From Seonamhaeicola sediminis (lineage in GTDB: Bacteria; Bacteroidota; Bacteroidia; Flavobacteriales; Flavobacteriaceae): a stretch of 64,000 nucleotides of DNA. A program made the translations under genes and the position numbers. The stretch spans positions 411,031 to 475,030 of the forward strand of contig NZ_SMZJ02000004.1 in NCBI RefSeq assembly GCF_004358095.2. The letters run 5' to 3'. This document shows, piece after piece, positions 17,611-53,372 of this stretch. Below the pieces are notes generated by a model that worked only from the letters and a program-made list of their open reading frames with translations, ran no database searches and had not been told where the DNA came from. Numbering within the stretch: the first letter of the stretch is position 1; each line of letters begins with the position of its first letter.

Positions 17611-20600
17611 TTATTTGGTTCCTAAGTATACTGGTCCGGTAAATGGAGCTAGTCCAGATGCTGATCCATCACTATTTTTGAGTATTACTATATAATAATA
17701 TGTTCCGTTTGGAGCTTTATCTGCGTTTCCTATAGAGCCATTAGCTTGTCCTTCCCATTTGGCTGGATCTGGACTACCTGATTCATTGGCACCAATAGGG
17801 TAGTTGTTAGATTCATATATTAAGGCTCCCCATCTATTAAATATCTTCACTTCAGAAGTAAATCCACAATTTGGGTCAGCATCAATATCAAAACTTTGGT
17901 TATAGAAATCACCATTAGGTGTGACTGCTTTAGATATGATAATATCATCAGAACTACATGGGAAGACAATACAATCATCATTAATATTGATTGTTACTTC
18001 AGTCGTTTCCAAACAACCTGTAGGGCTTGTGTAAGTGTAACTAAATACATAGTCTCCTAAGAAGTTTGTGTCGCTTCCAACAGTAACTAAGTTTGAAGGA
18101 TCGAACTCACTTCCAACAAAATTGATATTATTGGTTACACCTGAAACAAATGTCCAAGAGGCATCATCGTTAAAATCGTTGATGTAATCATCTAAATTTA
18201 TAACGCCATCATCCGCACAGGCCTCATCAGTTACTTGACTAACAAACTCATCAATACTAACAGTAACTATTTGTTCAACTACTCTAGTGTTATTACATTC
18301 GTCAACCGCTGTCCATTTTCTAATAATTTCATATTCCTCGGTAGCATTCGTTGTGTACATATATTCTTCACTAAACGTTACCTGAACATTTTCAGAACAA
18401 TTATCAGCAAAACCAAGCTCAGGTGCATCAGGAATAGCATCACAGCTTACTGAAATAGTACCAGGTAATTGGGTTACTAATTCAGGAGCTTCATCATCAA
18501 TCACTGTTATTATTTGTACTTGATCAGCAGCTGGATTGTTACAATTATCAACCAAAGACCAAGTTCTAGTAATGATGCGTTCATTTGGACAGTCACCATC
18601 GGCAATGCTATCAGAATATCTAGCTTCTATACCTGTTGAACAATTATCACTTTCATCGGTTACATCACCTGAAATTGCTAAATCACTAACATCATCTTGA
18701 CAATTAATAGTAATATCAGCAGGTGCTGTAAAAGTAGGAGCCGTGTTATCAGAAATTGTAATAGTTTGTGTTTGATCTTCAGCAGCATTACCACAGTTAT
18801 CAACCAATGACCAAGTTCTAGTGATTACAAACGTACCTTCACAAGGACCAGCCACAGGCTCACTATCAGCATAGGTAGCTTCAATACTTGTAGAACAGTT
18901 ATCAGCTTCATCTGTCACATCTCCAACATTACCAACAGACACATCGTAGTTACAATCAGCATCGGTGAATATTTCAATATCAGCAGGTGCAGTAAATGTA
19001 GGTGCTGTATTATCTGAGATGGTTATAGTTTGTGTTTGATCTTCAGCAGCATTACCACAGTTATCAACCAATGACCAAGTTCTAGTAATTACGAACGTAC
19101 CTTCACAAGGACCGGCTACAGGAGCACTATCCGAATAGGTAGCTTCTATACCTGTAGAACAATTATCAGCTTCATCTGTCACATCTCCAACATTACCAAC
19201 AGACACATCGTAGTTACAATCAGCATCAGTGAATATTTCAATATCAGCAGGTGCAGTAAACGTAGGTGCTGTATTATCTGAGATTGTTATTGTTTGTGTT
19301 TGATCTTCAGCGGCATTACCACAGTTATCAACCAATGACCAAGTTCTAGTAATTACGAATGTACCTTCACAAGGACCAGCTACAGGTTCACTATCAGCAT
19401 AGGTAGCTTCAATACCTGTAGAACAATTATCAGCTTCATCTGTCACGTCACCAACATTAGCAACAGACACATCGTAGTTACAATCAGCATCCGTGAATAT
19501 TTCTATATCCGCAGGCGCCGTAAATGTAGGTGCTGTATTATCTGAGATTGTTATTGTTTGTGTTTGATCTTCAGCGGCATTACCACAGCTATCAACCAAC
19601 GACCATGTTCTTGTAATTACGAAGGTACCTTCACAAGGACCAGCTACAGGAGCACTATCCGAATAGGTAGCTTCTATACCTGTAGAACAATTATCAGCTT
19701 CATCTGTCACATCTCCAACATTAGCAACAGACACATCGTAGTTACAATCGGCATCAGTGAATATTTCAATATCAGCAGGCGCCGTAAATGTAGGTGCTGT
19801 ATTATCAGAAATGGTTATAGTTTGTGTTTGATCTTCAGCGGCATTACCACAGCTATCAACCAATGACCACGTTCTTGTGATAACGAACGTACCTTCACAA
19901 GGTCCTGCTACAGGGGCACTATCAGAGTAAGTAGCTTGGATACCTGTAGAACAGTTATCGGCTTCATCGGTCACATCGCCAACATTGCTAACCGATACAT
20001 CATAGTTACAATCAGCATTTGTGAATATTTCTATATCAGCAGGTGCCGTAAATGTCGGTATGATATTATCAGAGATGGTTATGGTTTGTGTTTGATCTTC
20101 AGCGGCATTACCACAGTTATCAACCAATGACCACGTTCTTGTGATAACGAACGTACCTTCACAAGGTCCTGCTACAGGGGCACTATCAGAGTAAGTAGCT
20201 TCGATACCTGTAGAACAGTTATCGGCTTCATCTGTCACATCGCCAACATTGCTAACCGATACATCATAGTTACAATCAGCATCTGTGAATATTTCTATAT
20301 CAGCAGGCGCTGTAAATGTCGGTGTGATATTATCAGAGATGGTTATGGTTTGTATTTGATCAGCAGCGGCATTACCACAGTTATCAACCAATGACCACGT
20401 TCTTGTGATAACGAACGTACCTTCACAAGGTCCTGCTACAGGTGCACTATCAGAGTAAGTAGCTTCGATACCTGTAGAACAGTTATCGGCTTCATCGGTC
20501 ACATCGCCAACATTGCTAACCGATACATCATAGTTACAATCGGCATCGGTGAATATTTCAATATCAGCAGGGGCTGTAAATGTAGGTGCTGTGTTATCTG

Positions 20601-23600
20601 TAACAGTAATCGTTTGAGTTTTTACAGTAGTATTATCGCAATCGTCTTTTAATGTCCAAGTTCTAGTGATTACTACAGAGCCTTCACAAGGACCAGCTAC
20701 TGTTTCATCTTGATACGTTGCTTGAATGTTAGGAGAACATACATCTCCTTCATCGGTTACATCACCTGTTACAGCAGGAGAGGTATCATAGTTACAATCT
20801 GCATCAGTGAATATTTCAATATCAGCAGGAACTGTAAATTCAGGAGCAATAGTATCTTCAATAGTAAACTTAGCCGTTGTTTCACTAAAGTTGCCACAAG
20901 CATCTGTAGCTCTAAAAGTAACAATAGCACTACCAGTCATACCACAGTCATCACTTAATGTAATAAAGTTATTAGTCCATGAAACAGCAGAACAATCATC
21001 TGTTGCTTCAGCACCGGCGTTCGAAGATAACCAAGTGTTAAATTCACTTAAGTTACCTGCACCGTCACATTGTACTGTTTGATCTGAAGCTGGAACAGTA
21101 ATTGTTGGGTTTTCAGTATCTTTAATTAAGTATGTTGCTGTTGTAGAAGTTGAATTATTACATTCATCAGTAGCAGTAAATGTTACTGTAATAGCACCAT
21201 TTTCACACTGAACTGAAGTGTCTTGTCCATAATCATTAGTCCAAGTTACAGCACTACAGTTGTCTGTAGCTATAGCACCACCATTGGTGTCTAACCAGTT
21301 CTGAAGTGCCATTTCATCGGCATCACTATCGCTTAAACATTCTATTTCGATATTTTGGGCTTGCGTAGTTATGGTTGGAACAATCTCATCGTCGATAATT
21401 ATTAATTGTGTACATGTCATTGTATTCCCAGCCATATCAGCAATCTGATATGTTCTGGTTACCGTTTCAGGACAGCTTAAGTTATCACTAACTTCACTTA
21501 TTAATGTAAAGCTAGCTTCATTAATACTACAGTTATCATTGGCGCTTCCTCCTGCATTTGTAAATTCTGCATAGGTAGTATAAGCAGGTTGTTCTGAAAT
21601 ATCACACATTGCTGTTAGGTTGCCTGGACAAGTAATAAAAGGTGCTTGGTTATCAGTAACCACGACATCTTGTGTACATACAGTATCATTACCAGCAGTA
21701 TCTGTAAACGTCCAAGTAATGGTAGTCGTACCTAATGGCCAAGGGTCATTAAGCGCAGCGTTGTCACTTCTAGTACCAACAGCGTTTATAGTACCATCAC
21801 AATTATCATTAGCCTGAGGTACCGATACATCCGTACTGTTAGAACATACAGTGTCTGAATCGGAGTTAAAATCTATTTGAGACAATGAGTCACAATCGAA
21901 TACAGGTGCTTGGTTATCAGTAACCACGACATCTTGTGTACATACAGTATCATTACCAGCAGTATCTGTAAACGTCCAAGTAATGGTAGTCGTACCTAAT
22001 GGCCAAGGGTCATTAAGCGCAGCGTTGTCACTTCTAGTACCAACAGCGTTTATAGTACCATCACAATTATCATTAGCCTGAGGCACCGATACATCCGTAC
22101 TGTTAGAACATACGGTATCTGAATCGGAGTTAAAATCTATTTGAGACAATGAGTCACAATCGAATACAGGTGCTTGGTTATCAGTAACCACGACATCAAT
22201 ACTACAAGAAGCAGTATTTCCAGAGCCATCGGTAACAGTCCAAATAACTGTTGTAGTACCTAATTGGAAAACAGCGCCGTTCAGAGTTGAACCATTATTA
22301 TAGTCATTGATTACAGATGCAACACCACAATTATCTAAAGTACTAGTTGGATTTAAACTAGCATCAGGAACTGTAAAAGTACAAACCCCATTATCAGTAT
22401 CATAAGAAGCATCAGGAGTTGCACAAGTAATGGTAGGGTTTTCATTATCTATAACCACGACATCAATACTACAAGAAGCAGTATTTCCAGAGCCATCGGT
22501 AACAGTCCAAATAACTGTTGTAGTACCTAATTGGAAAACAGCGCCGTTCAGAGTTGAACCATTATTATAGTCATTGATTACAGATGCAACACCACAATTA
22601 TCTAAAGCACTAGTTGGATTTAAACTAGCGTCAGGAACTGTAAAAGTACAAACCCCATTGTCAGTATCATAGGAAGCATCAAGAGTTGCACAAGTAATGG
22701 TAGGGTTTTCGCTATCAGTAACGGTAACCGTTTGATCACAAGTAGCAGTATTACCCGAAGCATCTTCAACAGTCCATGTTACAGTAGTTGAGCCAAAAGG
22801 GAATTGAAAGTTATCGGGAATATTTTTGGTAATTGTTAAATCATTTGTGTCACAATCGTCACCCACGGTTGGATCACCAAGGGCAACATTAGACGCATAA
22901 CAGAAGCCATTATCAGCACTCACATTAACAGTAGGAGGACAAGTAATAGTTGGTGCAGTGTCTGTAATTGTAATATCGTCCGAAACAGTAACACTATTAC
23001 ATCCCTTAATAGCGTCAGGATCATATATAGTAAGTGTTACAGTGTAGGTTCCATCTTGTGCATAAATATGAGATGGATTTTGAATATTATCAACACTATT
23101 ACCATCTCCAAAATTCCAATCATATTCCGTGTTAAGCCCACCACTTGATGATCCCGTAAAATCAACCGTTAAACTACATCCATCGCTATCAGGCTCAACA
23201 GTCATTAAAGTTCCAGTTACACCGGCAATAAACTCCATTTCAATATCAGCATCAACGGTAATAAATGTGCTTGTACATTCATCACTCAAGGATACTGTAA
23301 CAGCAACATTAAACACATATTGACCAGGTTCTGAAACTGTAATAGTAGGATCTTCAACAGTATTACTTGGGGCAAAATCAACTGTTGCCCCAGAAGGGGA
23401 AGAAACTACTGTCCATAAATAAGTAGGAGTACCTTCAACAAACCCATTTAATTCTAAATCTACAAAGGTAGGTTCAAAACAAAACTGATTCTCTCCAAGA
23501 CCTGGATCAATATCAATGTTTGGATCAATCTGTATGGTACCTCCTGCAGCTACTACTTCACTAAAGATAATACATACATTTCCTCCTCCAGTACAAGCCG

Positions 23601-24036
23601 TATATTCAACTGTACCAATATTTATCCTTTTATTGTTATTACAAGGTCCTATAGTAGACAAAGCTGCAGTACCATTACTGGTATTAAGGTCTGTAGTGTT
23701 TTCAATAACAATTGCGGTATTTGGGGCTAAAGTTAATGTGGCGTTTGCAGTCCAAATAATTTGACCACCATCTTCTATAATAACTCTATCTATGCTAGAA
23801 GGTATAGTGGTATCAACACTTATAAATATATCAATACCATTAGGGATAATAACAGTACCATCACACGTCGCTGCATTTGTAGTAACAAAAGTAACTAATT
23901 GGGCACCTGTCATATTATTTGGTACAGTACACTGAGCATTTACCTCAGAAATTCCTGCTAATAAAAAAGATATCGCAAACAATAATATCGTTTTACTGCG
24001 GATAATTGCAATTAGACTATAAGTATTAGTTTTCAT
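17611..24036 (-). CDS. Giant HYR/PKD-repeat adhesin with T9SS type B (CHU_C) sorting domain
   Basis: A 2,141-residue surface protein. I start at the ATG at 24036 because the next residues (MKTNTYSLIAIIRSK... ending SEVNAQ) form a normal signal peptide; an ATG 21 codons further upstream is unlikely. Order: signal peptide, a short N-terminal domain, a PKD-like domain near residues 300-370 (FTGSSSGGLNTEYDWNFGDG), then many HYR-type (hyalin) Ig-like domains, including about eight near-identical 88-residue units with core PADIEIFTDADCNYDVS. The C-terminus (VKIFNRWGALIYESN... GPVYLGTK) is a CHU_C type B sorting domain. Expected role: cell-surface adhesion or gliding. Binding partner unknown. Confidence 0.9.
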   Translation of the reverse strand: MKTNTYSLIAIIRSKTILLFAISFLLAGISEVNAQCTVPNNMTGAQLVTFVTTNAATCDGTVIIPNGIDIFISVDTTIPSSIDRVIIEDGGQIIWTANATLTLAPNTAIVIENTTDLNTSNGTAALSTIGPCNNNKRINIGTVEYTACTGGGNVCIIFSEVVAAGGTIQIDPNIDIDPGLGENQFCFEPTFVDLELNGFVEGTPTYLWTVVSSPSGATVDFAPSNTVEDPTITVSEPGQYVFNVAVTVSLSDECTSTFITVDADIEMEFIAGVTGTLMTVEPDSDGCSLTVDFTGSSSGGLNTEYDWNFGDGNSVDNIQNPSHIYAQDGTYTVTLTIYDPDAIKGCNSVTVSDDITITDTAPTITCPPTVNVSADNGFCYASNVALGDPTVGDDCDTNDLTITKNIPDNFQFPFGSTTVTWTVEDASGNTATCDQTVTVTDSENPTITCATLDASYDTDNGVCTFTVPDASLNPTSALDNCGVASVINDYNNGSTLNGAVFQLGTTTVIWTVTDGSGNTASCSIDVVVIDNENPTITCATPDASYDTDNGVCTFTVPDASLNPTSTLDNCGVASVINDYNNGSTLNGAVFQLGTTTVIWTVTDGSGNTASCSIDVVVTDNQAPVFDCDSLSQIDFNSDSDTVCSNSTDVSVPQANDNCDGTINAVGTRSDNAALNDPWPLGTTTITWTFTDTAGNDTVCTQDVVVTDNQAPVFDCDSLSQIDFNSDSDTVCSNSTDVSVPQANDNCDGTINAVGTRSDNAALNDPWPLGTTTITWTFTDTAGNDTVCTQDVVVTDNQAPFITCPGNLTAMCDISEQPAYTTYAEFTNAGGSANDNCSINEASFTLISEVSDNLSCPETVTRTYQIADMAGNTMTCTQLIIIDDEIVPTITTQAQNIEIECLSDSDADEMALQNWLDTNGGAIATDNCSAVTWTNDYGQDTSVQCENGAITVTFTATDECNNSTSTTATYLIKDTENPTITVPASDQTVQCDGAGNLSEFNTWLSSNAGAEATDDCSAVSWTNNFITLSDDCGMTGSAIVTFRATDACGNFSETTAKFTIEDTIAPEFTVPADIEIFTDADCNYDTSPAVTGDVTDEGDVCSPNIQATYQDETVAGPCEGSVVITRTWTLKDDCDNTTVKTQTITVTDNTAPTFTAPADIEIFTDADCNYDVSVSNVGDVTDEADNCSTGIEATYSDSAPVAGPCEGTFVITRTWSLVDNCGNAAADQIQTITISDNITPTFTAPADIEIFTDADCNYDVSVSNVGDVTDEADNCSTGIEATYSDSAPVAGPCEGTFVITRTWSLVDNCGNAAEDQTQTITISDNIIPTFTAPADIEIFTNADCNYDVSVSNVGDVTDEADNCSTGIQATYSDSAPVAGPCEGTFVITRTWSLVDSCGNAAEDQTQTITISDNTAPTFTAPADIEIFTDADCNYDVSVANVGDVTDEADNCSTGIEATYSDSAPVAGPCEGTFVITRTWSLVDSCGNAAEDQTQTITISDNTAPTFTAPADIEIFTDADCNYDVSVANVGDVTDEADNCSTGIEATYADSEPVAGPCEGTFVITRTWSLVDNCGNAAEDQTQTITISDNTAPTFTAPADIEIFTDADCNYDVSVGNVGDVTDEADNCSTGIEATYSDSAPVAGPCEGTFVITRTWSLVDNCGNAAEDQTQTITISDNTAPTFTAPADIEIFTDADCNYDVSVGNVGDVTDEADNCSTSIEATYADSEPVAGPCEGTFVITRTWSLVDNCGNAAEDQTQTITISDNTAPTFTAPADITINCQDDVSDLAISGDVTDESDNCSTGIEARYSDSIADGDCPNERIITRTWSLVDNCNNPAADQVQIITVIDDEAPELVTQLPGTISVSCDAIPDAPELGFADNCSENVQVTFSEEYMYTTNATEEYEIIRKWTAVDECNNTRVVEQIVTVSIDEFVSQVTDEACADDGVINLDDYINDFNDDASWTFVSGVTNNINFVGSEFDPSNLVTVGSDTNFLGDYVFSYTYTSPTGCLETTEVTININDDCIVFPCSSDDIIISKAVTPNGDFYNQSFDIDADPNCGFTSEVKIFNRWGALIYESNNYPIGANESGSPDPAKWEGQANGSIGNADKAPNGTYYYIVILKNSDGSASGLAPFTGPVYLGTK
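18716..20835. repeat. About eight tandem 264-bp repeats inside the adhesin gene
   Basis: The anchor TTTGATC (with small changes) recurs at 18771, 19035, 19299, 19563, 19827, 20091 and 20355, exactly 264 bases each time, encoding 88-residue HYR units. Many blocks are near-identical in DNA, including silent positions, which points to recent duplication or gene conversion. Confidence 0.9.
21641..22720. repeat. Two further pairs of near-identical repeats in the adhesin gene
   Basis: GGTGCTTGGTTATCAGTAAC recurs at 21641, 21905 and 22169 (264-bp steps) with almost identical sequence between. A second pair, anchored at ACCACGACATCAATACTAC, recurs at 22187 and 22454 (about 267 bp). They encode two other HYR unit types. 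Confidence 0.85.
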
Positions 24037-24447
24037 AAGCTTGTAGATTTGTATTGACTTTAGCAAGATTTTTATATATATAAATGGGTTGCACAACATT
24101 GGTGTTGAGCAAACATGCTTCGCTTCTTAAAAAAAGTAATGAGGGAAAAATGCCAACAAGGGCATTAACAACTTTTGTAGTGAAATTTAGATTTGGGGTC
24201 ATGATTTCAGTTAATAGCTACAACAAAGCAACGTACATATCTTTATTTATTCAAAAAAATATGTCAAATCACTCAAAAAGTCGACAAAGAGCTTTTTAGA
24301 CTCGTTTAATCGGATTATCTGAATCATTTGACGACTTGAATATCTAATGATGCCTCTTACTAAGGTTTTTATAATCCATATTTAATTGAATTTTGGTTAT
24401 TTAAAGTCGTAATTTTACAATTACAATAAGCAAATAAAGTTCTTTTT
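24037..24447. other. Divergent intergenic region between the adhesin and sixA, no gene seen
   Basis: About 410 AT-rich bases. An open frame at 24084-24299 lacks any recognisable protein character. No clear promoter box or terminator was recognised, although the adhesin operon must start here. Confidence 0.5.
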
Positions 24448-31224: not shown

Positions 31225-31530
31225 TAGGTTAATATATAATAAATGGTTTTTGTTGGGATACTTGGTCTTTTTATGTTTTTTGTGTAAATAATAGTACAAA
31301 AATATTATTATTTAACGCTTAAAAGCATTTTATTTTCGATGAAATACATAAAATGTGTCGATTTACTTCTTAGTTATAAAAAAAAATACGATATTTACCT
31401 CGTTTAAGTGTGTTTTATGTAGGTTGAATGACGCTGAAAAACAAAATAAACTTACAAATTAAATTGATTTATTAAGAATTGTAATAAGATATATTTCTTT
31501 TTATAGCCTCAATAAAAGAAATAAAATTAA
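31225..31530. other. Leader region of the sprB-like gene
   Basis: About 300 AT-rich bases with no gene. It holds the phased array listed separately at 31308-31366 and a weak promoter-like TATATTTC near 31490. Otherwise nothing was recognised. Confidence 0.5.
31308..31366. promoter_or_regulatory. Phased CGAT-type array upstream of the sprB-like gene
   Basis: AACGCT (C at 31316), TTCGAT (C at 31337) and GTCGAT (C at 31359) are spaced 21 and 22 bases, with flanks such as GCATTTTATTTTCGATGAAAT split over two units. One more ACGATA at 31388 is off the grid. Confidence 0.5.
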
Positions 31531-34500
31531 ATGACTGCCATGAAAAAAACTACTTATGTAAGCTATGGACTTGTTATTATTTTTCTTTTTCTAAGCATTC
31601 AATTGTCTGCTCAGACTTATGATCCATTCACGGAGAGAGAAAAAATCGAGGTACGTGGTAGTATGTTGGTTGTTGGAAACAGCATTATTGGAGAAAATAA
31701 CTTACCTTTTAATGATTTAACTAGAGATAATCAAGATGTCGATATGAGATATATCGATATTGACTCAGATGCAACTACTTTTAGTTCCAGTAGTGCAGAA
31801 ATACAATTACCTCCTCATGAAGATGGAAGTCCAACAGATTGTTACAGGGTAGTCTATGCAGGTTTATATTGGGCGGCATCACTTCAATCTGGAGATAGAA
31901 GTGATATTGATGAAGTAAAGTTTAAGCTGGCTGGAAGTTCAACATATATCGATATTACTGGAGAAATTATTTACGATGCTATCGTAAGTCCAATAGTAGC
32001 TGAAACTGGAGAGCCAGGAAATACGCCGTATGCTTGTTATGCCGATGTAACCAATTTATTTAGTGGTTTAACAAATATAGAAGGAAATTATACGGTTGCC
32101 AATGTTACTTCCAGTGAAGGATTTAACAATTCAACAGGGTTATCTGCAGGATGGACACTCCTTCTAATTTATGAGGATCCTGAACTCTATACAAAATCGT
32201 TTACAATTTTTGATGGTTTTAGCCATATTTTTGATGGTCATCAAGAAACCGTTAATGTTACAGGCTTCCGAACACCTCCAGCCGGAAATATCGATTTACA
32301 ATTTGCTTATGGAACCTTAGATGGCGATCGTACCAAGCGAGCCACCAAATTAGAAATAAATGGTAAAGAAGTAACAACAGAATTAAGGCCAGCCAATAAA
32401 TTCTTTGGTTCTGTAATTGAAAACTTGGGTTATGATGGTAACCCTAATCCTCCAAGTCTAGTTTATCCTAGAAATCCTCAAAGTACCAATACATTAGGAT
32501 ATGATACAGGGCTTTTGGAAATAATTAATTCCGAACCGGAATTCATAAGGAACGATGATACGGCAGCCGATTTTAGACTTCAGGTTGCAAGGGGTCAAGC
32601 AGATCCTATTTTTGCTTTTATGAGTGCATTTGGTGTAGATATAATCGCACCAGATATAGATCTTACAAAAATTGTTTTGGATGAATTAGGAAATGATATT
32701 GATGGAGATGATGTGATTTTAGGCCAGAATCTATTCTATGAAATTACCTATCAAAGTGTTGGTAATGATAATGTAACACAATTTACAATTAAAGATATAT
32801 TACCAGACAATATCATTTTTGATCCTACTACCGATATTGATTTGAGTAATGCTGGCGGTGCAACTTTGCAGTCATGGGATCCAGTAACTAGAGAATTGAT
32901 ATTCAGTATACCAGATGGCTCAGTTGAAGTTGATGATCCAGCGTTCACGATTCGCATTGCCATTCAGGTGGTACCAAATTGCTACGATTTAAGTCAGGCT
33001 TGTTCTAATGAAATTAAGAACCAAGCTTTTGCTACTTATAGAGGTGTTATAAATCCAACAATAATTGAAGAAGAAGGAAGTTTTGCAACTGAAGAGTGTT
33101 TGGGAGTTCCAGGCTCTACTAACTTTATCGTGGATATATCAAACTGTGATTTTGCTAGAACTGAAATTTTATGTGGTAGTAGTGTTGTTTTAACCGCTGC
33201 TTCAGGATATGATACTTATTCTTGGTCTACAAGTCCAACGGGAACTCCTGTAATTGGTACAGGTCAAACCTATACCGCTACAGAGGTAGGAACATACTAT
33301 GTTAATAATACCACAACATCAACGTGTATTTCTATAGAGGAAGCTATAACAGTGGCGCTTTATGGTAATACACAAACTAATCCAGTTATTCCTTACGCAG
33401 ATCAAGTAGTTACTTGTCCTAATGACGGTAAGCAACTGCCATATATATTCTTATGTGGAGCAAATGAAACAAGAGAGATTTTAACAGGTATAAGTGATGC
33501 AGTATCTATTGTTTGGGAACAACTGGATGAAAGTAGTTGTGCGGCATTAACTGTAGATGATTGTGCTAACGAAAGTGATGATTGTACATGGAACCAAGTG
33601 GGAACAGGATCAGATTACGTAGCTAATATGGCAGGTGAGTTTAGACTTGTTATTAATTATCCTGGCGGATGTTTTAGTATTTTCTATTTTAATGTGTATC
33701 AAAACTTATTAGATCCAACCATAACGGCCGAGGATATCATTTGTACCACTCCTGGTCAGGTAACCGTTGGAGGTGTACCCTCAGGTTATGAGTATAGCTT
33801 AGACCCTAATGGACCTTATCAGGCATCAAATACATTTACAGTTAATACTCCCGGGTATTATACAGTTTATATTCAGCAAACAGTAGCCGATTCATTTCCA
33901 TGTACTTTTCAAACTCCTAGTATATATGTGAGACAGCGTGATGCTAACCTAACTACGGTGGTTACACAGCCAGATTGTAATGGAGATAAAGGTAGTATTC
34001 AGTTACAGGTAAACGATGCGCTTCCACAATATTACTATAGTCTATCACAAGGAGGTACTTTAATTAATAGTGTAGGGCCTATTATGGATAGTAATTACGC
34101 CTTTGATAATTTAAACTCAGGAACATATACATATTCGGTAACCACAGATGATGGCTGCATTTTTACAGATGATATAGATATAATTGATCCACCAGTAATA
34201 ACGGTAACAGCAGCTTTAACGCAACCTTTAACCTGTACCGATGGTGAAATAACAATTTATCCGGTTGGTGGTACACCACCTTATAACTATTTTATTAATA
34301 GTACTACCATTTCACAGAATTACCCAGAATATGTTGTTACTACAGCGGGTGTATACAATATTACTGTTCTGGATTTCAATGGTTGTGAAGCTTCAACATC
34401 AATTACTGTTGATGGTATTTTACCACCTGAGTTTAACATAAATCAAAACAATATTTTATGTGCAGACGATCCTAATAGTGGCTCTATAACCGTTAATGTT

Positions 34501-37500
34501 ACCAATGCCAACGGTAATAGTTTAATGTATAGTATAGATGGCGGAACTACCTTTGTGAGTTCCAATGTGTTTACAGGTCTAGTGGCTGGCAACTATGATG
34601 TGGTTGTACAATATACTTACGATGCTGATGTATGTGCTTCTGTAGCTCAGAACATTACAATTACAACACAGGCTCCAATTACAGGAACAGCCACATTAAC
34701 AACACCGTTAACTTGTACAACAAATGGGGTAATTGCAGTTTCTGGAGTATCTGGAGGAACATCACCTTACGAATATAGTATTGATGGTGTTAACTTTCAG
34801 TCAGGAAACACGTTCTCAGGTTTAACTAATGGAACTTATACGGTTACTGTAAGAGATGCAAGTGGTTGTTCTTCAGTATTAACACCTATTACAATTGATG
34901 CTCTAGATCCACCTACCGATATGGACTTTAGCAGCACACCATTAACATGTCCCACCAATACTTCTGATATAACTATTACTGGAGTAACAGGTGGTACACC
35001 ACCTTTAGAATATCAAATTATTGCACCTTCAGGTTCAGCTACTGCATATCAATCGTCTAATGTTTTCAATGGATTGGGGTCTGATACTTATACCTTCCAA
35101 GTAAGGGATGCTAATAACTGTACTTATAGCGAATCGTATACCATAGATTCATTACCTACACTTTCGGTAATTGGATTGGTTTTAAATAACGAGACTTGTT
35201 TTGGTGCTTCAGATGGTACTGCAGAATTTACAGTAACTGGAACAACAAGTTTTACCTATACTATTAATGGTGGAGCATCTGTAGCTGGTAGTTCACCAAT
35301 CAATATAACAGGATTAGCTGCAGGTAGTAGTTATACCATAGCCATTACAGATACAACAACTAATTGTACCGCAACCGATACGGTAAGTATATCTGGACCA
35401 CCTTTTGCATTAAATATTACTGTAACAGAAACACCTATAACCTGTACTGCAAATGGAAGTGTCGCTGTCACTGCTACCGGTGGTTGGGGTGGTTATAGTT
35501 ATGAATTAGAACAACCTGACACTTCAATATTAGGTTCTCAAGGCAGTAATATTTTTGGAGGTTTATCCCAAACAGGAACGTATACGGTTACGGTGACTGA
35601 TGCCAACGGATGTCAAGTTACAACAACCTTTGTATTGAGTACGCCAAGTAACCCAACGGCTACGATAATCAATGCCAATTATTGTTATGATGGTACGAAT
35701 GCTTCTTCTCTTGAAGTGAGTGCTTCCGGAGGTAATCCACCATATGAATACAGTAACAACGGAAGTGTATTTCAAACAAATCCGGTTTTCTCAAACTTAG
35801 CACCCGGGACTTACGATATTATAGTAAGAGATGCTTTTGGATGTACCTTTACTTTACCAACTGAGACCATAGCAGACCAATTAACAGCTTCAGCTAGTTT
35901 AGTTAAAGGATTGGATTGTACTACGAGTCCAGATGCAGAAGTTAATGTTACGGTTTCTGGAGGTATTGCCCCATACAATTACGAAGTATCCTTTAATGGA
36001 GGTGTGTTTATCGCAACAGGTAATCCACCATATACCTATAATAGTGGACAGACGGGGGATTATCAATACAGGATTACGGATGCTTTAGGTTGTACGGCAT
36101 TAACCAATGTGATTACTATTCAGCCTATTTCAAATCCATTGGCCACAGCCATAGCTACTGATGTATTCTGTAGTGGAGACGCCACCGGAATTGTAGCAAT
36201 TGATATAGATGAAACCTTAGGGGTACCACCTTATCAAGTTAGCTTTAATGGTTCAGGATTCACATCTCAAGCAGTTTATAACGGATTAATAACTGGAACC
36301 TATAATTACATTGTTAGGGATGCCAACAGTTGTGAATTTAATGGTTCTGTAGTTGTTAATGAGCCTAGTGTTATTGCTTTGGGTTCTGAAATCATTACAC
36401 CTATTACTTGTGGTGTAGGTGGCAATGTACTTGGAGCTATTCAAATACTCAATGTTACTGGTGGAACACCTAATTATACTTATACGCTTTTAAATAGTTC
36501 AGGTGCTGTTGCTACAACATCGTCCTCAAATCCTTTTGGACCTACACCAAATGATAATGTAACGTTTAACGATTTAAGTTTTGGCAATTATTACCTAAGA
36601 ATAGTAGATGCTAATGGTTGTGAGTATAACTTTGGGCCTTATTTAGTGGCTTCTGATGTTGATAACTTAGATATTAATACAAATGCAACAGGAACTTGTA
36701 TAGCTGGGGTAGAATACAATATTGAAATTGTTAACGGTACGGGACCTTTTAGAGTACGTATTTATGATGGTACAACAACATTTAACCCAACAGATGGCAC
36801 TGCACCTAATGGATTACCAATTTCTAATATGTCGCCAAATGAAAGAAACCATCAGTTTTCTGGACTCCAGTTTGATGTGAGCTATACTTTTGAAGTATTA
36901 GATACTAGTACAGGTTGTACCTATATTGAAAATGTACCTGCTATACCAAGCCCGTCTACTATTGCTGTTTCTGGAACTGCTACAGATATTACTTGTTATG
37001 AAATCCCAGGATTAGATGACGGTACTTTCGACTTTACGGTAACCGCTTATAGTGGTAACGAATTATCATGGGAAGTTTTTAATAACCTTTCAAATACAAC
37101 AACTGGTATTACAGGCAATGCAACTGGCTTGTCTGGAGCAGATTATTCAGATACTGTTTCTGGTTTGGCCCCAGGAGATTATTATTTATTGGTTTCTGAA
37201 ACAGACTTAACCTCTACGCAGTGTACAGCTTTAGTGAATTTCCAGATTATACAGCCTACAGAATTATTATTAGCTGAAGTAGTTAATACAAATGCTAATT
37301 GTAATCAAGATGCACAGGTTGTTGTAAATGGTAGTGGGGGTACACCGCCATATGAATATGCTTTTGTTGAGGATGGTGTTACACCAACAATTGGAGATTG
37401 GACTGCTAATAATTTAGCTATTTTGGATGTTAATATCAATATTAATTGGGATGTTTACGTTCGTGATACTAATGGATGTGATATATCATCTCCATTAGAT

Positions 37501-40500
37501 GTTTCTATTTCGGCAGATCCGCTACCAGTAGTAACATTGCCTACTATTGCAAACGATCAATGTACATCAAATGGTAGTTCCTATACTTTTACAGCTACAC
37601 CTGGAGGAGGAGAGATAACACCTGTTACTTATAGTATAGATGGAGTAAACTTTCAATCAAGCCCAACATTTATAGTCACTTCAACAGGAACATTTACGGT
37701 AACCATACGTGATGGAAATGGATGTACAGCAACCGATACTATTACTATTTATGAACCTATACAAATTAGTGCTCAGGTAACGGCACTAACATCTTGTACC
37801 AATAACGATGGCATCATAACGATGACAGGGTATGGTGGTTCTGGAAATTATACTTATGAAATCACCTCTGGTCCTGTTTTAGTTGGTCCTCAGGCATCAA
37901 ATGTGTTTAACGGTTTACCAAGTGGGACTTATACCATTACCATAGCAGATACTACTACAGCATGTACAGACCAAGTAGATATTACTTTGGACGCTGCAAC
38001 CCCAGTTCTATTTACACCTGTAGCAACCAATGTTAGTTGTAATGGAGGTAATGATGGAATTATAACAGTAAATCTACCAGCGAGTAACGATAATCCTCCA
38101 TATACTTATGAGATTACTTCAGGCCCTGTGTTATTAGGGCCACAAAGCTCAAATATATTCACTGGATTACCAGCAGGAAATTATGATATCACTGTAATTT
38201 CAGGTAGAAATTGTAGTACAACTGAGCCAATAACCATAGGAGAGCCTGTGCTTTTAGATGTATCGGGAACAGCAACCGATTTTGCATGTGCTCCAGACAA
38301 TTCGGTGAACACATCAATATTGACCATTGTAGAAAACGGAGGGACATTTCCATATACATTCAGTATAGATGGTACTAACTATTTTACAACCAATACATTT
38401 GATATTATAGATACCGGAAGTGTTCAAACTGTTGATATTTATGTAAGGGATGCTAATGGATGTGTGGCCTCAAACACTGTAAGTATAAATCCCTTACCGG
38501 CATTAACTTTGGCTACGGCAGCCATAGCAACTCCAATTGATTGTAATAACACTGGCACTGTTTCAATTACTGTTACGGGTGGGTCTGGGAATTTTAATTA
38601 TCAGATGTTACCTAATGGAACACCTCAGGCTTCAAATACGTTTGCTATTACAGGCCCAGGAACCTATTATTTTAGAGTTAACGACGTAGACACTGGTTGT
38701 AGTATAGATACATCAGGGTTAACCATAGCACCTTATGATACCATAAATATTACAGCCACTGTAACTACAGATGTAACTTGCTATGGAGATAACAATGGCG
38801 TAATTGAATTTCTTGTAAATGGTTATACGGGGACATATAATTATGAAGTATTTAATAGTTTGGGAGTATCCATAAGTGGTGTTGTTGCTAGCGATACTTC
38901 AACTAACCCACAAACTATAACAGGAATGACTGCCGGTAACTATTATGTTGAAGTCACTGAAACAGCAAGTCCGTTCTGTTCGACGTCTTCCAACATAGTA
39001 AACATATTATCCCCAACAGAACCATTGACCTTATCGGCAACGGAAACATCAAATGTTACCTGTGATGATAATCAAGGCACTATCATTGCTATAGCTAGTA
39101 ATGGATGGGGTGGTTATGAATACCAATTAACCGGTGCTGCTACGGTACCATACTCAACAAACGGAACATTTAGTAACCTTTCAGCAGGAACGTACACTAT
39201 CAGTGTTAGAGATGCAGGTGGTTGTATTGTTTCAGAAAGCATAACATTAAATTTACCAATACCAATCAACGCTACTGTAGTGGCTACACCAACACTATTA
39301 AGTTGTTTTGGTGATACCAACGCAATGATTACGGTTAGTAATGTAACAGGAGGTCAAGGCAGTAACTACAGTTATACATTAAACATGACTGCTCCAACAG
39401 TTAGTGCTTCAGGACCACAGGCATCGCCAGTATTTAGCGGGTTAGCAGCAGGTACCTATAACGTAACTGTAACTGATGGTTATAACTGTACATTTAATAC
39501 ACCAGATGTAGTTATTTCAGAACCTACTCAAATAGTAGCTTCTTTAGTTACGGCAAGTACCCAAACTTGTATTAATGATGCTACCCTTACCTTAAGTGCA
39601 ACAGGGGGTACAGGAAGTTATGAGTATAGCAATACTGATAATTTTACAACAGTCTTGGGTTCTTTTGCAACATCAATAACCTTTTCAGTAAGTCCGGGAA
39701 CCTATCAATATTATGTAAGGGATGCTAATGGATGTGTGTCTAGTGTTTCTAATGGTATTACTATAGAACCTTTAGTCCCATTAACGGTTAATCTAGACAC
39801 AACCAATTCAACGGTTAACTGCGCTGGAGATTCTACAGGTGTTATTGTGGCAGAGGCACAAGGTGCTTTAGGAAATTATGTTTATACACTTCAAGATGGT
39901 AGTGGGAATGATATATTAGGAGCGGTACAAAATAATCCAGGTGTTTTTACAGAATTACCAATAGGAACGTATCAAGTATATGTTGAAAGTGTGGATTGTG
40001 ATATAACCTCATCAGCAGTTATTATTACAGAACCAACAGAACCTTTAACGGCTCAATATATTGTAACCGATATTACTTGTAATGGTGAAAATGATGGTAT
40101 CATTGAAGTAAGTGCTTCTGGAGGAACAGGCATCATAAAGTACGCAATTACTCCTAGACTGGATCAGTTTTTTGACGAACCTATTTTTGACGAACTGTCA
40201 CCAGGATTTTATGATATTATTGTACAAGATGAACTTGGTTGCTATGTACTGCTTGAAGATATAGAAATTGTAGAAGCAACTCCCGTTATACTTACCATAG
40301 TACCCAATTCCATATTGCCAGAGGTTTGTGAAGGCGATATGAATGGGGAGTTTAGTATTGATATTTCTGGAGGAACATTACCTTATAACGTTGCTTTAGA
40401 TGATATTAATGGTGCATATACAACTGGTGGACCAACACAAACCATATTTGATTTTAATGGATTAAGTGGTGGTGATCATATAGTTTATGTTATAGATGCT

Positions 40501-41271
40501 CAAGGGTGTGAGTCTGAATGGAATATTACGTTTCCAGAATCTGTAAGATTAGATCCGTCAGTTGAGGTTGATTATTGTACAGATATTTATGATGCGAGTA
40601 GTAATGCGGTAACTGTGAGTATAGACTCTAGTGTAGATTCTGTAGAAGTTGATTACTCTTTAGACGGTATAAACTTCCAAAGTAACAATGTATTTGTTGA
40701 TGTTGCTCCAGGTTTAAATCAATCAATAACCGTAAGGCATTCTAACGGATGTGAGCAACAAGTATTTTTCGATATTAATCAATATGATCCATTACAAATA
40801 GCGATTAGTGATGGTAATATTAATGAAATTGTATCGGCTGTTTCTGGTGGTTCAGGAGATTATGAATACGCCATTCAAAGGGTGAATTCAATCGACTTTG
40901 AGCCATATCAAGACACAGGTACTTTTATTATTTATGAATCTGGAACCTACACTATTCAAGTAACTGATAGTAACGGTTGTGTTGCTTCTGCATCAAGACA
41001 ATTTGAGTTTGTTGATGTTTGTATTGCAAATTATTTTGTACCAGGAAGAAATGAGGATTGGGGGCCTGGATGTACATCACAATATAGAAACTTAACTGTT
41101 GATATTTTTGATAGATACGGACGTAAAATAGCTACGCTTGGTGTTGATGAAACATGGGATGGAACTTATAATGGCAAACAATTGCCTACTGGTGATTATT
41201 GGTATGTAGTGAACCTTAATGATGAAAGAGATAAACGAAGTTTTGTTGGACACTTTACACTTTACAGGTAA
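31531..41271 (+). CDS. sprB: SprB-like giant gliding adhesin with type B sorting domain
   Basis: About 3,246 residues (an ATG at 31540 would start the protein at MKKTTYV, which looks like the more natural signal peptide start). Signal peptide ends LSAQ; then an N-terminal region with CYRVVYAGLYWAA (DUF3344-like), a DUF11-like domain near 375-520 (ITYQSVGNDNVTQFTIKDIL), and dozens of SprB repeats of about 70-100 residues (ITCTANGSVAVTATGGWGGY; LSAGTYTISVRDAGGC). The C-terminal VDIFDRYGRKIATLG... FVGHFTLYR is a CHU_C type B domain. F. johnsoniae SprB is the mobile surface adhesin of gliding; this one is about half as long. The gene sits before an SprF gene with an 11-base gap. Confidence 0.82.
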   Translation: MTAMKKTTYVSYGLVIIFLFLSIQLSAQTYDPFTEREKIEVRGSMLVVGNSIIGENNLPFNDLTRDNQDVDMRYIDIDSDATTFSSSSAEIQLPPHEDGSPTDCYRVVYAGLYWAASLQSGDRSDIDEVKFKLAGSSTYIDITGEIIYDAIVSPIVAETGEPGNTPYACYADVTNLFSGLTNIEGNYTVANVTSSEGFNNSTGLSAGWTLLLIYEDPELYTKSFTIFDGFSHIFDGHQETVNVTGFRTPPAGNIDLQFAYGTLDGDRTKRATKLEINGKEVTTELRPANKFFGSVIENLGYDGNPNPPSLVYPRNPQSTNTLGYDTGLLEIINSEPEFIRNDDTAADFRLQVARGQADPIFAFMSAFGVDIIAPDIDLTKIVLDELGNDIDGDDVILGQNLFYEITYQSVGNDNVTQFTIKDILPDNIIFDPTTDIDLSNAGGATLQSWDPVTRELIFSIPDGSVEVDDPAFTIRIAIQVVPNCYDLSQACSNEIKNQAFATYRGVINPTIIEEEGSFATEECLGVPGSTNFIVDISNCDFARTEILCGSSVVLTAASGYDTYSWSTSPTGTPVIGTGQTYTATEVGTYYVNNTTTSTCISIEEAITVALYGNTQTNPVIPYADQVVTCPNDGKQLPYIFLCGANETREILTGISDAVSIVWEQLDESSCAALTVDDCANESDDCTWNQVGTGSDYVANMAGEFRLVINYPGGCFSIFYFNVYQNLLDPTITAEDIICTTPGQVTVGGVPSGYEYSLDPNGPYQASNTFTVNTPGYYTVYIQQTVADSFPCTFQTPSIYVRQRDANLTTVVTQPDCNGDKGSIQLQVNDALPQYYYSLSQGGTLINSVGPIMDSNYAFDNLNSGTYTYSVTTDDGCIFTDDIDIIDPPVITVTAALTQPLTCTDGEITIYPVGGTPPYNYFINSTTISQNYPEYVVTTAGVYNITVLDFNGCEASTSITVDGILPPEFNINQNNILCADDPNSGSITVNVTNANGNSLMYSIDGGTTFVSSNVFTGLVAGNYDVVVQYTYDADVCASVAQNITITTQAPITGTATLTTPLTCTTNGVIAVSGVSGGTSPYEYSIDGVNFQSGNTFSGLTNGTYTVTVRDASGCSSVLTPITIDALDPPTDMDFSSTPLTCPTNTSDITITGVTGGTPPLEYQIIAPSGSATAYQSSNVFNGLGSDTYTFQVRDANNCTYSESYTIDSLPTLSVIGLVLNNETCFGASDGTAEFTVTGTTSFTYTINGGASVAGSSPINITGLAAGSSYTIAITDTTTNCTATDTVSISGPPFALNITVTETPITCTANGSVAVTATGGWGGYSYELEQPDTSILGSQGSNIFGGLSQTGTYTVTVTDANGCQVTTTFVLSTPSNPTATIINANYCYDGTNASSLEVSASGGNPPYEYSNNGSVFQTNPVFSNLAPGTYDIIVRDAFGCTFTLPTETIADQLTASASLVKGLDCTTSPDAEVNVTVSGGIAPYNYEVSFNGGVFIATGNPPYTYNSGQTGDYQYRITDALGCTALTNVITIQPISNPLATAIATDVFCSGDATGIVAIDIDETLGVPPYQVSFNGSGFTSQAVYNGLITGTYNYIVRDANSCEFNGSVVVNEPSVIALGSEIITPITCGVGGNVLGAIQILNVTGGTPNYTYTLLNSSGAVATTSSSNPFGPTPNDNVTFNDLSFGNYYLRIVDANGCEYNFGPYLVASDVDNLDINTNATGTCIAGVEYNIEIVNGTGPFRVRIYDGTTTFNPTDGTAPNGLPISNMSPNERNHQFSGLQFDVSYTFEVLDTSTGCTYIENVPAIPSPSTIAVSGTATDITCYEIPGLDDGTFDFTVTAYSGNELSWEVFNNLSNTTTGITGNATGLSGADYSDTVSGLAPGDYYLLVSETDLTSTQCTALVNFQIIQPTELLLAEVVNTNANCNQDAQVVVNGSGGTPPYEYAFVEDGVTPTIGDWTANNLAILDVNININWDVYVRDTNGCDISSPLDVSISADPLPVVTLPTIANDQCTSNGSSYTFTATPGGGEITPVTYSIDGVNFQSSPTFIVTSTGTFTVTIRDGNGCTATDTITIYEPIQISAQVTALTSCTNNDGIITMTGYGGSGNYTYEITSGPVLVGPQASNVFNGLPSGTYTITIADTTTACTDQVDITLDAATPVLFTPVATNVSCNGGNDGIITVNLPASNDNPPYTYEITSGPVLLGPQSSNIFTGLPAGNYDITVISGRNCSTTEPITIGEPVLLDVSGTATDFACAPDNSVNTSILTIVENGGTFPYTFSIDGTNYFTTNTFDIIDTGSVQTVDIYVRDANGCVASNTVSINPLPALTLATAAIATPIDCNNTGTVSITVTGGSGNFNYQMLPNGTPQASNTFAITGPGTYYFRVNDVDTGCSIDTSGLTIAPYDTINITATVTTDVTCYGDNNGVIEFLVNGYTGTYNYEVFNSLGVSISGVVASDTSTNPQTITGMTAGNYYVEVTETASPFCSTSSNIVNILSPTEPLTLSATETSNVTCDDNQGTIIAIASNGWGGYEYQLTGAATVPYSTNGTFSNLSAGTYTISVRDAGGCIVSESITLNLPIPINATVVATPTLLSCFGDTNAMITVSNVTGGQGSNYSYTLNMTAPTVSASGPQASPVFSGLAAGTYNVTVTDGYNCTFNTPDVVISEPTQIVASLVTASTQTCINDATLTLSATGGTGSYEYSNTDNFTTVLGSFATSITFSVSPGTYQYYVRDANGCVSSVSNGITIEPLVPLTVNLDTTNSTVNCAGDSTGVIVAEAQGALGNYVYTLQDGSGNDILGAVQNNPGVFTELPIGTYQVYVESVDCDITSSAVIITEPTEPLTAQYIVTDITCNGENDGIIEVSASGGTGIIKYAITPRLDQFFDEPIFDELSPGFYDIIVQDELGCYVLLEDIEIVEATPVILTIVPNSILPEVCEGDMNGEFSIDISGGTLPYNVALDDINGAYTTGGPTQTIFDFNGLSGGDHIVYVIDAQGCESEWNITFPESVRLDPSVEVDYCTDIYDASSNAVTVSIDSSVDSVEVDYSLDGINFQSNNVFVDVAPGLNQSITVRHSNGCEQQVFFDINQYDPLQIAISDGNINEIVSAVSGGSGDYEYAIQRVNSIDFEPYQDTGTFIIYESGTYTIQVTDSNGCVASASRQFEFVDVCIANYFVPGRNEDWGPGCTSQYRNLTVDIFDRYGRKIATLGVDETWDGTYNGKQLPTGDYWYVVNLNDERDKRSFVGHFTLYR

Positions 41272-46590: not shown

Positions 46591-48321
46591 TTAAACATCC
46601 AAATTAAAAGCTTTCTTTAATAACTCTATATTAGGGTTTTTCTCTTTAAGTTTTTCAAACTTTTCAATAGGCGTATAGGCGTATTGTTTTTCCATGACTT
46701 CATTAACAGTAATGGCAAGGTCTATATCAAAGTTATTGAGTGATTTTCTTATAAACCCTAATAAATCGTACTGATTGCGTTCAATTTCCAATTTATTTGT
46801 TTCAGTTGGAAATTCAAGATGAATGGTGGTTTCTTTAAGTTTAGGTTTATCTATAGATAAAATAGAAGCCAAATTTCGTTTTCCAGACTTTTGCAAGTTT
46901 TCAATATAGGTATTCCAGACTTTTAAGAGTTCACGCTCTGTAAAATCGTCTTTAGGCAAGTCTTCTTCGTCAATAACCACGTTCATTTGCCTTATTTGGT
47001 GCTCCTTTTTTGTTTTTAAGCTACTTAATGAGAGACCAGATTTGCGCTTTGTTTCTTGTTTTAAAATAATTTTTGGAGGTTCTTTAACTTGAAAAGCTTC
47101 AACAGTTTTAGCAACTGGTTCAATAGGATTAACTATTGCTTGTTCCGTTTCATCAGAAACCTCATTGGACTCTTGTTTTTTCGGCACAGAAACCACAACA
47201 GGAGTGATGCCTTTGTTTTTAAAATAGGAAGGCGGTATTATGTAATGTCTGCTATTTTTTTTTTCTCCATCAAAAGTGATAGAGGCAAGTTGCATAAGAC
47301 AAAGTTCAACCAACAAACGTTGATTTTTACTGCTTTTGTATTTGAGATCACAATCATTGGCCAAATGTATACCTTGTATTAAAAAATCTCTGGTAGCCTT
47401 TCTAGACTGTTCCAAATATTTTTGTTTGGTCTGGTCACCAACTTCTAAAAGCGCAATAGTATTTTCTGTTTTACTTACCAATAAATCTCTAAAATGAGAT
47501 GCTAAACCAGCAATGTAATGGTGGCCATCAAAGCCTTTAGAAAGTGTATTATTAAAAAGAAGCAGTAATTCTGGTATTTTATTTTGTAGTATTAAATCAG
47601 TACTTTCAAAATAGGTTTCATAATCCAGTACATTTAAATTCTCTGTTACCGCTTGTCTGGTTAAATTTTTACCAGAAAAGCTAACAACTCTATCAAAAAT
47701 GGAAAGCGCATCTCTCATAGCGCCATCTGCTTTTTGTGCAATAATATGAAGGGCGTCATCTTCGGCACTAACACCTTGCTCTTCGGCAATATACTGTAAG
47801 TACGCTTTAGCATCTTTAACCGTAATTCGTTTAAAATCGAAAATCTGGCACCGCGATAAAATGGTTGGTATAATTTTATGCTTTTCAGTAGTTGCTAAAA
47901 TAAAAATACAGTGTTTTGGTGGTTCTTCTAAGGTTTTTAAAAAGGCATTAAAGGCAGCTTGTGATAACATGTGTACCTCATCTATAATGTACACCTTGTA
48001 TTTTCCAACCTGGGGCGGAATTCTAACTTGGTCTGTTAGATTTCTAATATCATCAACAGAGTTGTTTGACGCTGCATCTAGCTCAAAAATATTAAACGCA
48101 AAGTCCTCATCTGTTTCTGTACCATCACTGTTAATCATTTTGGCCAATATACGGGCACAGGTAGTTTTACCAACACCTCTGGGACCCGTAAACAGTAAAG
48201 CCTGTGCCAAATGATTATTTTCAATGGCATTTAAGAGCGTATTGGTAATAGCCTGTTGGCCAACAACATCCTTAAAGGTTTGTGGTCTGTACTTTCTGGC
48301 TGATACTACAAAGTGCTCCAT
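46591..48321 (-). CDS. dnaX: DNA polymerase III subunit gamma/tau
   Basis: A 576-residue clamp-loader ATPase. Walker A GPRGVGKT is at residues 46-53, Walker B YIIDEVHML near 111-119, and sensor ATTEKHKI/SRCQ motifs follow. Domain III ends near residue 350. The C-terminal part (about 360-576) is a low-complexity linker plus a tau-like domain that binds the polymerase. Two oddities: the four-Cys zinc module found in most bacterial DnaX is missing between residues 55 and 85, replaced by INSDGTETDEDFAFNIFELD; and codons 353-356 contain an A10 run whose slippage would make a short gamma form (see findings). It precedes miaE. Confidence 0.96.
   Translation of the reverse strand: MEHFVVSARKYRPQTFKDVVGQQAITNTLLNAIENNHLAQALLFTGPRGVGKTTCARILAKMINSDGTETDEDFAFNIFELDAASNNSVDDIRNLTDQVRIPPQVGKYKVYIIDEVHMLSQAAFNAFLKTLEEPPKHCIFILATTEKHKIIPTILSRCQIFDFKRITVKDAKAYLQYIAEEQGVSAEDDALHIIAQKADGAMRDALSIFDRVVSFSGKNLTRQAVTENLNVLDYETYFESTDLILQNKIPELLLLFNNTLSKGFDGHHYIAGLASHFRDLLVSKTENTIALLEVGDQTKQKYLEQSRKATRDFLIQGIHLANDCDLKYKSSKNQRLLVELCLMQLASITFDGEKKNSRHYIIPPSYFKNKGITPVVVSVPKKQESNEVSDETEQAIVNPIEPVAKTVEAFQVKEPPKIILKQETKRKSGLSLSSLKTKKEHQIRQMNVVIDEEDLPKDDFTERELLKVWNTYIENLQKSGKRNLASILSIDKPKLKETTIHLEFPTETNKLEIERNQYDLLGFIRKSLNNFDIDLAITVNEVMEKQYAYTPIEKFEKLKEKNPNIELLKKAFNLDV
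47255..47264 (-). promoter_or_regulatory. Candidate slippage site (A10) inside dnaX
   Basis: On the coding strand the sequence is GGA-GAA-AAA-AAA-AAT-AGC. An extra A (or a -1 ribosomal shift) reads E-K-K-K-stop (TAG) and a lost A (or +1 shift) reads five more codons and TAA. Both would end DnaX at about residue 356-360, at the edge of domain III. Confidence 0.55.
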
Positions 48322-53245: not shown

Positions 53246-53372
53246 TGTTATTTTTTAATTAAAAGTTATCAAAGGTCTTTCGCAAATCTACAATTTTTTT
53301 TTAATCGTTAAAACACCCAGCTAATAAAAATCATTTCTATATTTGAATAATTTATTTTTTGTTAAATCCTTA

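Follow-up and report, generated by a model that had tools for sequence, protein, structure and literature searches.

A conserved A10 run with an adjoining hairpin in the dnaX gene of Flavobacteriaceae: a predicted RNA polymerase slippage site

The dnaX gene of Thermus thermophilus contains an A9 run at which transcriptional slippage takes place: tau is encoded in frame and stop codons lie near in both other frames (PMC5009743, PMC1088944). In Escherichia coli the same gene relies on a −1 ribosomal frameshift at A_AAA_AAG, with an upstream Shine-Dalgarno (SD)-like stimulator and a downstream hairpin (PMC3711429). The GeneTack screen of 2013 reported 17 two-frame dnaX genes from 12 genera with runs of A7–A10, nine of them with A10; it proposes polymerase slippage and names Chlorobium and Chloroherpeton (PMC3711429). 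Outside dnaX, transcriptional slippage in the Roseiflexus IS630 element depends on a stem-loop; the inverted repeat lies immediately 5′ of the motif and was proposed to act as a nascent RNA hairpin (PMC5009743).

The window analyzed here is a stretch of 64 000 nt from Seonamhaeicola sediminis with a G+C content of 33.6%. Its dnaX gene was identified by a profile search, the product scoring above the cut-off of NCBIfam NF011531 (Table 1). Close to where the gamma region ends, the sense strand of dnaX carries an A run of the Thermus kind (about nine or more), seen on the + strand as T10 at 47255–47264. The initial annotation had placed this run where domain III ends, and the match to the N-terminal model TIGR02397 indeed ends at residue 345, just before it. 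One added A gives the reading E-K-K-K and then TAG directly after the run, one lost A gives E-K-K-I-A-D-I-T and then TAA 14 nt beyond the run, the latter stop arising from an ATA isoleucine codon; read from the letters of the window, the annotated A10 with immediate stops either way was described exactly. The gene is a single frame in the DNA, with gamma and the tau-specific part not split between frames. The likeness to Thermus thermophilus thus covers the homopolymer A run on the sense strand, tau in frame, near stops in both other frames and gamma as the slipped product (predicted here), whereas the run there is A9 and here A10. With Escherichia coli the locus shares the gene and the predicted outcome, gamma arising via a stop just past an A run, but A_AAA_AAG is absent in phase from the window dnaX, where only A_AAA_AAA and A_AAA_AAT occur. 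Two very long open frames also lie in the window, at 31531–41271 (3246 aa) and 17611–24099 (2162 aa).

Table 1. Predicted features of the Seonamhaeicola sediminis dnaX gene (positions within the window)
Feature	Position	Strand	Evidence
dnaX, tau (full-length zero-frame product, 576 aa)	46591..48321	-	open frame and NCBIfam profile
A10 slippage run (predicted), codons 353-356 GAA AAA AAA AAT (E353, K354, K355, N356)	47255..47264	-	read from sequence; conserved in relatives
Hairpin (predicted RNA), adjoins A10 run	47265..47284	-	fold z, codon-preserving nulls, pairing in relatives
TAG reached by one added A or −1 ribosomal shift; predicted gamma 356 aa	47252..47254	-	
TAA reached by one lost A or +1 ribosomal shift; predicted gamma 360 aa	47238..47240	-	

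With the two strands of the genome combined (3.54 Mb, 50 contigs), sixteen runs of exactly ten A were counted, longer runs standing outside the count; only that of dnaX lies in the sense direction within an open frame of at least 200 codons. dnaX matches were obtained in 193 of 199 Flavobacteriaceae genomes, and the genes that we read were taken from among the matches listed. The first 129 of these genes carry A10 in 121 cases, A11 in five, A12 in two and A9 in one, and all 18 further listed genes, fetched later as a check, have A9–A11; in the family dnaX genes read, the A9–A12 run is placed at the end of domain III. Within the genus Seonamhaeicola A10 was found in six of seven genomes including our own, while the seventh (G002) has A11, which brings TAG into the main frame and splits dnaX. 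Codon choice in the run is invariant. In 130 aligned Flavobacteriaceae genes Lys354 is AAA in 129 of 129 lysines, Lys355 is AAA in 130 of 130 and Glu353 is GAA in 122 of 122 glutamates, compared with 2710 AAA among 3554 Lys codons and 2337 GAA among 3148 Glu codons upstream in the same kind of genes. A scan of synonymous sites over codons 1–365 gave the same location: the twelve most constrained 7-codon windows all start at codons 343–355. Some relatives have AAG in the run, unlike the GAA AAA AAA AAT of the window. In flavobacterial relatives, the dnaX coding sequence that precedes the site amounts to about 152 kb and contains 26 A7 and 11 A8 runs but nothing of A9 or longer.

The stops in the shifted frames are conserved as well. 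We compared them with a null of codon-preserving shuffles. In 96% of 130 single-frame genes the added-A frame meets a stop no more than 6 nt past the run (null 50%, maximum 60%), and in 86% of them the lost-A frame does so within 15 nt (null 26%, maximum 35%). A stop within 30 nt in both shifted frames is seen in 128 of the 130 single-frame Flavobacteriaceae genes, in contrast to 36% at control positions in the same genes, where single off-frame stops within 30 nt reach 69% and 54%; among the 18 genes read later the number is 17. It is mostly an ATA isoleucine codon that supplies the lost-A stop: ATA was found in 86 of 99 Ile in this column versus 851 of 4058 Ile codons upstream. For all groups together, 251 of 264 distinct loci with one long frame have a stop within 30 nt in each of the other two frames (L131 and L269 lack a single long frame and fall outside this count). 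The position and the two stops had seemed too apt to be chance, and the codon nulls, the control positions and the rarity of A10 in the genome uphold that judgement.

A few other A runs were seen on the way. Elsewhere in the window a run of nine A or T occurs just twice, as A9 on the + strand at 31378 and as T9 at 53294, each time between open frames of at least 100 aa. On contig C45 of the same genome, a gene is split at an A10 (74466–74477) into two open frames, one of about 132 codons and one of about 144 (about 1130–1910 of L339). By eye its product presumably resembles an alpha/beta hydrolase, and the split would be due to either slippage or a recent frameshift.

We extended the comparison with named Bacteroidota contigs and with a phylum sample of 60 regions picked to spread over family codes. 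The second set has 74 loci from outside the family (L255–L328), and the run is present in 52 of the 71 that could be aligned (L293, L294 and L307 were unaligned and left out). Including the 16 family members of this set it is found in 68 of 87 loci, at a G+C content of up to 60%; the median G+C of the 19 loci without it is 59%. Over both sets, 29 of 304 aligned loci have no run of A8 or longer in the scanned stretch (10 of 217 in the first set and 19 of 87 in the second), and eight of the ten in the first set bear the name of Bacteroidales or of one of its subgroups. Counted from the equivalent of residue 353, the run starts as early as −16 and as late as +87 nt, and runs of at least nine occur in all three codon phases. 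After repeats had been dropped (275 to 266 loci; L381 and L382, regions of G289 and G242, are in none of the counts), run lengths were A9 in 28, A10 in 217, A11 in 17, A12 in three and A13 in one. Lack of conservation in relatives had been named beforehand as the point that would speak against the site; the family retains the run and both stops, and outside it the run is still kept.

Two side observations concern loci without the run. In one block of the phylum sample with many GC-rich members (L283–L292, L295–L298) a run of A7 or longer is absent after domain III. Three loci without an A run (L089, L115, L125; titles Bacteroides sp., Bacteroidaceae bacterium and Candidatus Cryptobacteroides) share GGGGCGTAG(C) just past DnaX domain III: one added G gives an immediate TAG, and in two of them GGGC/GCCC could pair. 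This is possibly another route to the same end.

The frame in which tau is stored differs between relatives. Among the 266 distinct loci tau is in the main frame in 206, needs one more A in 52 and one A fewer in six, and is ambiguous in two, so that it is out of frame in the DNA in 58. The two-frame genes of the GeneTack screen concern the same gene and the same kind of run, but those 17 are split in the DNA, unlike the window dnaX and the 206 single-frame loci. One more A is required in seven of seven genomes of the genus code g128 and in the named Flavobacterium loci L070–L072 and L075, whereas the Flavobacterium locus L073 needs one fewer. Errors in homopolymer assembly could lie behind L073 (A9), L143 (A12) and L010 (A11), and L119, likewise among the loci needing one A fewer, is cut by its own contig end; assembly error explains less easily L248 and L095, which have A10 with an in-frame stop. 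On a tree computed with FastTree from 227 DnaX N-termini, no fewer than 24 changes are required to account for the single-frame state, nine of which are forced by well-supported branches. Whichever way tau is stored, the nearby stops persist.

An inverted repeat is present directly 5′ of the run in Flavobacteriaceae dnaX. In the window the 5′ arm (47277–47284, CUCUAUCA), the loop (47273–47276, CUUU) and the 3′ arm (47265–47272, UGAUGGAG) can form the hairpin CUCUAUCA-CUUU-UGAUGGAG with 8 pairs and zero spacer to the A10 run. A segment of 41 nt that takes in the run folds at −9.7 kcal/mol (z −3.78), and none of 200 shuffles was as good; a search of Rfam over 46950–47500 gave zero matches reaching the gathering score. 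We evaluated the 24 nt upstream of the run in relatives against a codon-preserving null in which amino acids are fixed and codons are drawn from the usage of the same gene: the 39 distinct sequences that carry the majority stem had a mean z of −2.56 and the other 65 one of −1.49, 43% of the latter having p ≤ 0.05, compared with mean z of −0.18 to +0.11 and p ≤ 0.05 in 3–14% at 14 control positions in the same genes, the p values per sequence not being independent since the sequences are related. Eleven divergent representatives (<75% ungapped identity) gave z −1.97 (Wilcoxon p 0.002; p ≤ 0.05 in 5 of 11). Windows off the run in this set departed from zero as well (−0.78 at −39, −1.16 at −33 and −0.74 at +45; n 6–11), which we take as noise at that sample size. 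The 18 dnaX genes read later yielded z −1.34 (p 0.0008; p ≤ 0.05 in 8 of 18). Upstream windows of 30, 45 and 60 nt had mean z of −2.06, −1.27 and −1.11, whereas downstream windows of 24–90 nt gave no comparable fold signal (mean z −0.07 to −0.24, n 143–144). In the window dnaX the 3′ side of the run is weak too (z −1.10). An E. coli-like downstream hairpin was therefore rejected: where Escherichia coli has its hairpin downstream, the flavobacterial one lies upstream, adjoining the run.

With a cut-off of −4 kcal/mol or better and an end within 3 nt of the run, the hairpin is present in 80 of 104 distinct flavobacterial sequences and absent in 24. Paired cells amount to 74.5% in the 104 sequences, above the shuffles (mean 67.4%, maximum 70.0% in 1000), and partners slid by 1–3 nt pair in 44–50%. 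Double changes occur in 7 of 8 pairs with 26 further pair types and show no excess over slid controls (7–8 pairs, 28–29 types), the double-change cells numbering 56 versus 42–44. The claim of a hairpin accordingly draws on the percentage paired and the codon nulls, as the double-change counts give no support on their own. Stems with changed partners or register were seen in L176, L180, L183, L186, L190, L203, L210, L213, L229 and L230, and a stable stem is absent in L161, L198 and L205. Conserved letters at this place could also mark an internal Shine-Dalgarno sequence. In E. coli-type signals the SD-like stimulator stands about 10 nt upstream of the shift site; the GGAG of the window touches the A10 run and doubles as a hairpin arm. 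As the sole cause of the conserved upstream letters GGAG was rejected: of the 80 distinct hairpin-bearing sequences, 13 have no SD-like letters, and others have changed arms.

Farther out the hairpin was not enriched, with z −0.31 (n = 22) in the order/class sample and z +0.16 (n = 30) in that of the phylum; a z of −1.04 (n = 69) came from the named contigs, in which flavobacteria and others are mixed. A phylum-wide hairpin was rejected for lack of enrichment outside Flavobacteriales. Because this enrichment is missing further out, we regard the run as the wide feature and the hairpin as the flavobacterial one, and since the hairpin is also absent from the 24 flavobacterial sequences below our cut-off, it is not needed for upkeep of the run. 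The hairpin adjoining the run in Flavobacteriaceae, and the phylum-wide drift in position and storage frame, go beyond what is described for Thermus thermophilus. The Roseiflexus element shares the placing of an inverted repeat immediately 5′ of the slippage motif, but there the motif is mixed (T5C5), one base is deleted and the host is a mobile element, as opposed to A10 in a housekeeping gene with both directions possible.

The reading that we favor, with a probability of roughly two in three, is that the A10 run is a programmed RNA polymerase slippage site, aided by a hairpin in flavobacteria, from which both tau and gamma are produced. The polymerase would add A's on the run or, less often, drop them, giving mRNAs in all three frames. 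Those in the right frame would be translated into tau; those in the other frames would stop at once and yield gamma, roughly DnaX domains I–III. Slippage of the Thermus type goes with mRNAs of mixed run length and with tau and gamma at about 1:1. In Flavobacteriaceae the nascent RNA hairpin may fold at the exit channel with the run still inside the RNA:DNA hybrid, a geometry that equals an intrinsic terminator whose U's are replaced by A's and would promote realignment. The hybrid measures 9–10 bp (PMC5009743). Slippage by the polymerase would account for a run length near ten in every codon phase, matching the length of this hybrid; it would also account for the closure of both other frames, for the freedom of the storage frame to flip and for a hairpin that touches the run with nothing conserved downstream. 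What the sequences show is the run, the stops, the potential for a hairpin, the conservation of all three and the repeated change of storage frame; we infer that the polymerase and not the ribosome is the slipping machine, that the exit channel is where the hairpin works and that tau and gamma are both produced. The gamma form by slippage proposed in the initial annotation thus gains support from the comparison of genomes. We are evenly divided on a further step, namely that a terminator-like signal with A's for U's serves as a polymerase frame randomizer in an essential gene and that the storage of tau or gamma has flipped often throughout the phylum. As a frame randomizer makes the output independent of the DNA frame, dnaX could flip between storing tau and storing gamma in frame.

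Ribosomal frameshifting, a −1 slip on A_AAA_AAA (or on A_AAA_AAG in some relatives) modulated by the upstream hairpin or by GGAG, is an unlikely explanation that nevertheless accounts for several observations. Slippery heptamers are available in every phase of the window A10 run, 52 of the 58 two-frame relatives need the −1 direction (one A more) for tau, and a single tRNA-Lys (UUU) was found among 36 tRNA matches in the genome, a set that looks incomplete because tRNA-Ile is not among them. However, no structure is conserved downstream of the run, where a −1 stimulator would sit. A hairpin upstream of and beside the shift site is reported to attenuate −1 and to stimulate +1 shifting (PMC6321510), which speaks against a role as −1 stimulator here. 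A heptamer requires seven letters in phase, yet the runs reach at least nine in all three phases; the SD-like letters are missing from part of the hairpin-bearing sequences, as noted above; and six relatives need the opposite direction (L010, L073 and L143 perhaps by assembly error, L119 being contig-cut).

A hypermutable tract, in which gain and loss of A at the DNA level would cause phase variation of dnaX with no slippage in single cells, seems very improbable to us. Length and storage frame do vary among close relatives, as in the A11 with its in-frame TAG in one of seven genus members, but the nearby stops are retained in both storage forms. DnaX is an essential replication protein, which disfavors such a tract, as cells without tau would be costly. 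Mutational drift, that is an A-rich Lys-Lys-Asn stretch with chance stops in an AT-rich genome, is hardly credible: low G+C and common off-frame stops would suit it, but codon choice in the run is invariant, the stops exceed the codon nulls and the control positions, which contradicts a chance origin of run and stops, the run is kept in GC-rich loci and at shifting positions, and A10 is rare in the genome.

Thermus slippage and two-frame dnaX genes with A7–A10 runs were already known. The initial annotation knew of no such description in flavobacteria, and in open-licence literature (titles and starts of abstracts) we likewise found neither a single-frame flavobacterial site nor a hairpin beside the dnaX run; the novelty is narrowed, however, by the two-frame A10 dnaX genes for which slippage was proposed in 2013 (PMC3711429). 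In the main text of that screen the string ‘Flavobacter’ is absent, the supplementary list lying outside this word search, and the sole mention of ‘hairpin’ there concerns the E. coli-type signal (PMC3711429). To the initial annotation our analysis adds the adjoining hairpin, the retention of the run outside the family with a drifting position and the storage of tau out of frame in relatives.

For annotators the result means that dnaX genes seemingly broken at the A run are probably intact. The role of gamma in E. coli has long been disputed (PMC5009743); if our reading is true, it would point to selection for keeping a short clamp-loader subunit in the phylum. Productive slippage driven by a hairpin, so far the case of a mobile element, would then also occur in a housekeeping gene, and polymerase slippage would be a common route to gamma in a large bacterial phylum and not a speciality of Thermus.
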